Assembly: GCA_903871775.1 (NCBI GenBank)
Contig: CAIQIA010000011.1
Location: 248,001-312,000 of the forward strand
Direction: 5' to 3'
Source: an uncultured cyanobacterium
GTDB taxonomy: Bacteria; Cyanobacteriota; Cyanobacteriia; PCC-6307; Cyanobiaceae
DNA: 64,000 nt
Positions 49,714 to 52,078 of the stretch are shown here, one piece after another. Below the pieces are notes generated by a model. It saw nothing but the letters and a program-made list of their open reading frames with translations. It was not told where the DNA came from and did no database searches. Position 1 is the first letter of the stretch; the number at the start of each line of letters is the position of its first letter. The translations under genes were made by a program, and so were the position numbers.

Positions 49714-51618
49714 ATGTCGTTCCTGGTCAGGCTCACGGACGCGATCCGCAGTCGTGATTCGCTGCTGGTGGTGGGGCTCGACCCCAACCCCGAACTGCTC
49801 GACAGCTGGCGCCGCGATCATCCGCGCCACAGTTCGCTGCTGTCGGCGGCGCGGCAGTGGATCCGCAGCGTCATCCGTGACACGTCTGACCACGTCTGCG
49901 CCTACAAGCCCAGCCTGGGCTTCTACCAGGCCCTCGGGCCCATCGGCCTCGATCTGCTGCGGGAGGTGCGGGAGCTGATCCCCCCCGACCTGCCGCTGCT
50001 GGTGGATGCCAAGCACGGTGATCTGAACAGCGCGTCGGTGCTGGCCCACTGGCTGTTCCGCGATCTGGGGGCCGATGCGGTGAGCGTCACCCCCTGGGCC
50101 GGCCAGGACGTGGCGGCACCGTTTCTGCTGCATGCCGACCGGGGCGTGGTGGTGGTGGTGCACAGCTCGAGCCCGGCGGCCCGGCGGGTGCAGCACCATC
50201 CCGACAGCGACCGCCCGTTGTTTCTGCAGCTGGTGCGCGACTGCCAGCGCTGGGCCACCGCCGACCAGCTGCTGCTGGAGGTGGGCACCGACGACCCCGA
50301 CCTGCTGGCGCGGGTGCGGGCCGAGGCGCCGGGGCGGTTTCTGCTGCTGCGCAGCCTCTGGTCTGATGCCGTGCCGCTCGAGCAGCTGCTGGCCGCCGGC
50401 CTCGGCCCCGCCGGCGACGACCTGCTGCTGCCCCTGCCCCAGGACCGGCTGGTGGCGCCCGACCTGGCCGCCGCCACCCGCGCCCTGCGGGACCGCATCA
50501 ATGCCGAACGCCAGCGGCTGGCCGACCGGCCCGACCGGGTGCCGTCGGATCGCTGCCCCCTGTGGCTGCCGGCGCCCGCCCCGGGCGACACCGAGGCGCT
50601 GATCCTGGCGCTCTTTGACCAGGGCTGCCTGCTGTTCGGCGATTACGTGCAGGCGTCTGGTGAGGTGTTCCCCTATTACCTCGACCTGCGCACGGTGATC
50701 TCGAACCCGGGGCTGTTCCAGCGGTTGCTGCACGCCTACGCCCAGGCGATGGAGGGGTTGCCCTTTGACCGCCTCGCCGGCATTCCCTACGGCTCGCTGC
50801 CCACCGCCACGGGCCTGAGCCTGCAGCTGCACAAGCCGTTGATCTATCCGCGCAAGGAGACCAAGGCCCACGGCACCCGCCGGCTGATCGAAGGCGACTT
50901 CGAGCCCGGCGACCGGGTGCTGGTGGTGGATGACGTGCTGATCTCGGGCGGCAGCATGCTCGACGGTGTCGACAAGCTGCGCCGGTCAGACCTGATGGTC
51001 AACGACGTGGTGGTGCTGGTGGACCACGGCAGCGGTGGCCGCCGCCGGCTCGAGGAGCAGGGATTGCGCTGCCATGCGGTGCTCACCTTCGCCGGCATCC
51101 GCGAGGTGCTGCAGGGGGCCGGCCGCCTGAGCGGCGAACAGCTGCAGCGGTTGCGCCATGGTGCGGCGGCGGCGCTGCTGGCGGGGGTGGCCCTGGCGGG
51201 CCTGCCGCTGCTGGCGGCGCCCGTGCCCCTGCGGCTGGCCCCCGTGCTGCAGCGCGACACCCACGAACGCCGCTGCCCCACGGCCGCCGCCGTGATCGAA
51301 ACGCTCCAGCCCCAGCGCGAAGCCAGCTACGGCACCGACGGCCAGGCCGACCTGGGGGCCATCGCCAGCGGCTGGCGCCTCGACCGCCGCGATGCCTTCA
51401 GCGCCAGCTGGACCGCCCGGGTGCAGCCCGCTTTCGCCAGCTGCCGCGCCGGGGCCGCCAGCGAGGCGGGCCATGTGCAGCTGCGCCTCTGGGACGGCAG
51501 CGCCCGCCTCACCCTCGAGATGATCGTGCTGCGGGATCCGAACGGCTACATGCCCCAGATCACCCGCGCCGCCGTGGGCGGTGGTGTGCCGGTGTGGAGC
51601 TGGGCCGGGTCTGACTGA
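49714..51618 (+). CDS. OMP decarboxylase-orotate phosphoribosyltransferase with a membrane/exported extension
   Basis: This 634-residue frame has three parts. Residues 1-280 are PyrF of the type 2 class (CAYKPSLGFYQALG, DAKHGDLNSASVLAHWLF). Residues 290-478 are PyrE (RKETKAHGTRRLIEGDF and VLVVDDVLISGGSMLDG). From residue 483 a 24-residue hydrophobic stretch (GAAAALLAGVALAGLPLLAA) leads to a 128-residue tail with two cysteines (RRCP, SCRAG) that looks exported. The PyrF/PyrE fusion catalyses the last two steps of UMP synthesis. The tail could instead be a separate secreted protein starting at the TTG at 51151. No stop separates them. Confidence 0.85.
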   Translation: MSFLVRLTDAIRSRDSLLVVGLDPNPELLDSWRRDHPRHSSLLSAARQWIRSVIRDTSDHVCAYKPSLGFYQALGPIGLDLLREVRELIPPDLPLLVDAKHGDLNSASVLAHWLFRDLGADAVSVTPWAGQDVAAPFLLHADRGVVVVVHSSSPAARRVQHHPDSDRPLFLQLVRDCQRWATADQLLLEVGTDDPDLLARVRAEAPGRFLLLRSLWSDAVPLEQLLAAGLGPAGDDLLLPLPQDRLVAPDLAAATRALRDRINAERQRLADRPDRVPSDRCPLWLPAPAPGDTEALILALFDQGCLLFGDYVQASGEVFPYYLDLRTVISNPGLFQRLLHAYAQAMEGLPFDRLAGIPYGSLPTATGLSLQLHKPLIYPRKETKAHGTRRLIEGDFEPGDRVLVVDDVLISGGSMLDGVDKLRRSDLMVNDVVVLVDHGSGGRRRLEEQGLRCHAVLTFAGIREVLQGAGRLSGEQLQRLRHGAAAALLAGVALAGLPLLAAPVPLRLAPVLQRDTHERRCPTAAAVIETLQPQREASYGTDGQADLGAIASGWRLDRRDAFSASWTARVQPAFASCRAGAASEAGHVQLRLWDGSARLTLEMIVLRDPNGYMPQITRAAVGGGVPVWSWAGSD

Positions 51619-51628
51619 CGGATGGCCG

Positions 51629-52078
51629 TCAGCCTGCTGTGAGGGGTGTGTTGCCCTCCACCCAGGTGCCGACGCCGCTGCTCCATTCGCGTTTCCAGAA
51701 GGGGGCGTCGTGCTTGAGGGCCTCGAGCAGCTCGTGGCAGCAGCGCTGGGCGGGCCCCCGCCGGTCGGCCAGCACCGCCACCACCACGATGGCGTCACCG
51801 CTGAGCACCAGCCCCACCCGGTGCCGCACCATCACCGCCGCCACCCCATGGCGGCGGGCGCTGGCCGTCGCCAGCCGCTGCAGTTGCGCTTCGGTCATGC
51901 CCGGGTAGTGCTCGAGCTCGAGGGCATCGAGGGGCTGGCCGTCGCTGGCGGTGCCCCGCACCCGGCCGATGAACAGGCTGGTGGCGGCGGCCGGGTCGCC
52001 CCCCAGCTGCTGCTGCCACTGCTCAACCTGCAGGAACGGCCCGAACGGGTCGGGGTGCAGGCTGACGCTCACGCTCAT
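51629..52078 (-). CDS. moaE: Molybdopterin synthase catalytic subunit
   Basis: This 149-residue MoaE has GDPAAATSLFIGRVRG near residue 28, LELEHYPGMTEAQL, the basic HRVGLVLSGDAIVVVAVLADRRG and KHDAPFWKREW with the catalytic Lys. It acts with MoaD to add the dithiolene sulfurs to cyclic pyranopterin. The start ATG at 52078 lies 13 bp after the moaD stop. It is convergent with the PyrF-PyrE gene (10 bp between stops). Confidence 0.93.
   Translation of the reverse strand: MSVSVSLHPDPFGPFLQVEQWQQQLGGDPAAATSLFIGRVRGTASDGQPLDALELEHYPGMTEAQLQRLATASARRHGVAAVMVRHRVGLVLSGDAIVVVAVLADRRGPAQRCCHELLEALKHDAPFWKREWSSGVGTWVEGNTPLTAG

Follow-up and report, generated by a model that had tools for sequence, protein, structure and literature searches.

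An In-Frame Junction of pyrFE with a Small Exported-Protein Domain in One Cyanobacterial Genome

How does the gene of a bifunctional UMP-synthesis enzyme come to continue, without a stop codon, into an exported-type domain? This question is raised by a locus from an uncultured cyanobacterium of the Cyanobiaceae, which lies within a window (the whole stretch of DNA analyzed) of 64,000 nucleotides. The forward-strand frame at 49714-51618 comprises 634 codons and runs continuously from the ATG at 49714 to the TGA at 51616-51618. The initial annotation described a PyrF-PyrE protein that continues without a stop into a 24-residue hydrophobic segment and a 128-residue tail with two cysteines, and this description proved exact. 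The features of the locus, with the evidence for each, are as follows.

49714-51150, plus strand: PyrFE part (residues 1-479), an OMP decarboxylase (OMPDC) domain followed by an orotate phosphoribosyltransferase (OPRT) domain (NF004034 match, motifs, dN/dS)
51151-51153, plus strand: TTG codon (residue 480), the end of the conserved PyrFE core and the likely ancestral start of the tail gene (ends of relatives, tail alignments)
51160-51231, plus strand: hydrophobic segment of 24 residues (483-506), a former signal peptide that is now internal (Kyte-Doolittle hydropathy, alignment with the N-terminal signal peptides of relatives)
51232-51615, plus strand: exported-type domain of 128 residues with Cys521, Cys577, and the C-terminal WSWAGSD (identity to stand-alone relatives, AlphaFold)
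51616-51618, plus strand: stop codon of the merged frame (open-frame reading)
51619-51648, no strand assigned: edge of the similarity to the sister species, whose contig L072 begins to match the window only at 51648

The segment at residues 483-506 is the strongest hydrophobic stretch of the protein, with a 19-residue Kyte-Doolittle mean of 2.15 at residue 484 compared with a maximum of 1.25 in the PyrFE part. The tail, counted as 155 residues from the TTG at 51151, is 47% identical to a stand-alone protein from another species of the same family (G062, E = 8e-32), and its third-position GC of 0.92 equals that of the enzyme part (0.91). Both observations set the frame apart from one left open by chance in GC-rich DNA.

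As for the enzyme part, residues 1-482 match positions 1-476 of the 478 positions of the NCBIfam model for bifunctional PyrF/PyrE (NF004034, E = 2e-185) in the OMPDC-OPRT order, which is known from some cyanobacteria (PMC2705460). The OMPDC motif DAKHGD (consensus DAKHxD) and the PRPP-binding motif VLVVDDVLISGGS (consensus VDDxLIxGxS) are both present and align with those of seven relatives. The PyrFE part resembles the cyanobacterial bifunctional PyrF-PyrE (NF004034, PRK05500) in its full-length match, domain order, catalytic motifs, and an identity of about 55-65% to relatives within the family. The merged protein differs from it by 154 additional residues, which carry the hydrophobic segment and the exported-type domain, and by a score of 616.7 bits for the whole frame and 616 bits for residues 1-480 alone, which does not reach the curated NF004034 cut-off of 656 bits. 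All six PyrFE relatives that were tested against the model exceeded this cut-off with 664-694 bits. By the score criterion, the PyrFE part is a diverged relative and not a certified member, and it is also the most diverged of the compared set. In a comparison with the sister species that covers 335 codons, dN/dS is 0.084, which shows that the PyrFE part nevertheless evolves under constraint.

Where does the enzyme end? In the 28 complete PyrFE loci fetched from the family's other species, the proteins comprise 484-523 residues, terminate at various stop codons, and contain no hydrophobic segment. Their stops lie between 5 and about 27 residues past a GRLSxxQ motif. In the merged frame this motif occupies residues 470-476 and the hydrophobic segment begins at residue 483, so that the enzyme is complete and the extra part starts where the relatives stop. 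The best solved relative of the enzyme part is the kinetoplastid UMP synthase (PDB 3qw4, E = 3e-67), which shares the OMPDC-OPRT order and owes its glycosomal location to an SKL signal at the C-terminus (PMC5803862). The likeness to a UMP synthase localized by its C-terminus is one of principle only; the kinetoplastid signal consists of three residues for glycosome import, whereas the cyanobacterial frame adds a membrane segment and an exported domain.

The tail belongs, judging from its sequence and not from its gene organization, to an unnamed family of small exported cyanobacterial proteins. Stand-alone relatives with significant matches were found in four species of the same family and in 14 more distant cyanobacteria; two weak matches (L034 and L055), partial or broken, were left out. 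Besides G062, the same-family species are represented by G607/L049, G647/L050, and G642/L051, each present in two collections, and the tail is 45-49% identical to the proteins of L049, L050, and L051. The match covers the whole tail, including both cysteines and the WxWxGSD end, and in the same-family copies the similarity starts at tail residues 2-6. Cys521 and Cys577 are kept in all aligned relatives, and the tail shares with the family (L033, L049-L051, L035-L048) both cysteines, the W-x-W-x-G-[ST]-D end, and the signal peptide. It differs in being the most divergent member, in lacking a separate gene, and in two gaps of nine residues each relative to the G062 protein, one behind the hydrophobic segment and the other behind the second cysteine. 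The window tail retains 23 of 32 conserved positions, the fewest of all, the next lowest relative having 27 of 30, and from these counts it may be slowly decaying. Every intact relative fetched (4 + 14) is the product of a separate gene and starts with a signal peptide. In the window, the upstream frame continues into the tail, so that a signal peptide is present but internal.

The family is patchy in the phylum (L033, L035-L054), occurring in 17 of 386 genomes, two of them with weak matches, and it is found on Nostoc and Microcoleus plasmids as well. The tail has no match in Pfam, NCBIfam, PHROGs, or the PDB sequences. An AlphaFold model built from four sequences (mean pLDDT of 73, one of five models good) is beta-rich and consists mostly of β-strands. 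Its best structural neighbors are PilQ B2 domains, with a Z-score of only 6.2 over 89 residues, and the best Foldseek E-value was 0.12. We did not use the structural neighbors as evidence of function.

The stand-alone genes of the same-family species have a usual slot. In all four same-family species, the tail gene adjoins a magnesium-chelatase-type gene (chlD), and the opposite neighbor, where it was read (L033, L050, and L051), is a gene with an MlaD domain. Within the DNA fetched, no stand-alone copy has pyrFE as a neighbor. The window's genome contains a single copy of the tail, located only behind pyrFE; its slot between chlD and the MlaD-domain gene holds a gene for a hexapeptide-type transferase (PglD_N; L075:2794-3552, minus strand, G000:C18). 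The pyrFE contig of the sister species breaks off at PyrFE residue 335, and its assembly, 76% complete, yielded no copy of the tail. Another contig of the sister species (G032:C247) carries a gene for a 774-residue protein facing moaE (L072:1175-3499, minus strand). This protein has no Pfam match, and neither the window's genome nor any of the four other family genomes searched contains it. The presence of this different gene on the moaE contig of the sister species shows that members of the genus differ in what lies 3' of pyrFE.

The junction appears in one genome. Among the 400 genomes of the family that were searched, the 240 bases around it occur whole only here, and a conserved fused family was rejected on this ground. 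The initial annotation had considered an anchoring of UMP synthase at a membrane, and it had named, as one finding that would overturn its interpretation, homologues in which the tail is always a gene of its own. This is the case in every intact relative fetched, so that a membrane-anchored UMP synthase does not hold as a conserved arrangement, the merger being seen in one genome only. The interpretation is nevertheless supported in part: the tail is of the export type with its own signal peptide, as suspected, and the TTG at 51151 is the expected start of such a protein.

The best explanation, in our view slightly more likely than not, is that in this lineage alone pyrFE merged in frame with the gene of a secreted protein that had changed its place; the locus has the look of a single such event and not of a new system. 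The evidence for this merger comes from one genome only. In related picocyanobacteria, the gene of this small exported protein with two cysteines occupies the slot between chlD and the MlaD-domain gene on its own; here it would have moved directly to the 3' end of pyrFE, and the stop codon of pyrFE would have been lost, whereby the two frames join without a linker. As the open frame contains no stop, ribosomes on pyrFE must go on into the tail. The predicted product is a tethered PyrFE with the tail on the far side: the former signal peptide would serve as an internal signal anchor in the N-in/C-out orientation, keeping PyrFE on the cytoplasmic side and placing the disulfide-capable tail in the periplasm or the thylakoid lumen. 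Should signal peptidase still cleave behind LPLLA, it would free the tail and leave PyrFE with only a hydrophobic stub. The nine residues missing after the hydrophobic segment are located where the cleavage sites of the relatives likely lie, which leans slightly toward an uncut anchor. That the captured signal peptide truly holds UMP synthase at the cytoplasmic or thylakoid membrane, while the exported domain is folded on the opposite side, we regard as possible yet doubtful; such tethering would bring the two final steps of UMP synthesis to the membrane.

Two other explanations have to be weighed against the merger. The tail may still be made and exported alone from the TTG at 51151, as a gene nested in frame inside pyrFE, with the read-through fusion as a by-product. 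This TTG coincides with the start of the stand-alone relatives, the first residues MRHGAAAALLAG form a plausible signal peptide, and all intact relatives are independent secreted proteins. However, no ribosome-binding site is evident by reading upstream of 51151, which is a weak test in cyanobacteria, the sole nearby ATG (51158) is out of frame, and the fusion would be made regardless because the stop codon is absent. On balance, we find the nested gene rather improbable. An error of assembly or base calling, in which a short missing stretch or a miscall (e.g., TTG for TAG at 51151) erased the stop codon of pyrFE and the true start of the tail, seems to us more improbable still. In its favor, the two parts meet exactly, without any linker, in DNA that is GC-rich and repetitive (GCGGCGGCGGCG), no second genome confirms the join, and the out-of-frame ATG at 51158 would, with one frame change, yield a good signal peptide (MVRRRR...).

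Against such an error stands the geometry of the reading frames. Similarity fixes the frame of PyrFE as far as about residue 480 and that of the tail from the signal peptide on, so that about 25 bases are left for a hidden frame change. The next stops of the other two frames lie at 51293 and 51612; consequently, an error of one or two bases would leave PyrFE with a nonsense extension and not with a clean end. A frameshift between residues 470 and 485, which the initial annotation had named as another finding that would overturn its interpretation, is thus not supported: inserting or deleting one base at the junction neither restores a near stop nor yields two clean genes, and we rejected a junction frameshift as the simple cause. 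The contig is also long, at 384 kb.

The locus shows a known enzyme in a new fused form, seen in a single genome, and not a conserved membrane-bound UMP synthase; it points to no new conserved system. If real, the merger would be a clean case of a cytosolic enzyme that captured a downstream signal-peptide gene and thereby gained, in a single step, both an anchor in the membrane and an exported domain. It also highlights a small exported cyanobacterial family that matches no Pfam, NCBIfam, or PHROGs model. The merger may have been tolerated because separate pyrF and pyrE-like genes exist. The same genome that encodes PyrFE carries a stand-alone PyrE-like gene (G000:C7:89603-90115) and a stand-alone PyrF gene for a second OMP decarboxylase (G000:C2:193246-193914). 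Such stand-alone genes accompany PyrFE in relatives too, and some genomes of the family contain only the stand-alone ones.
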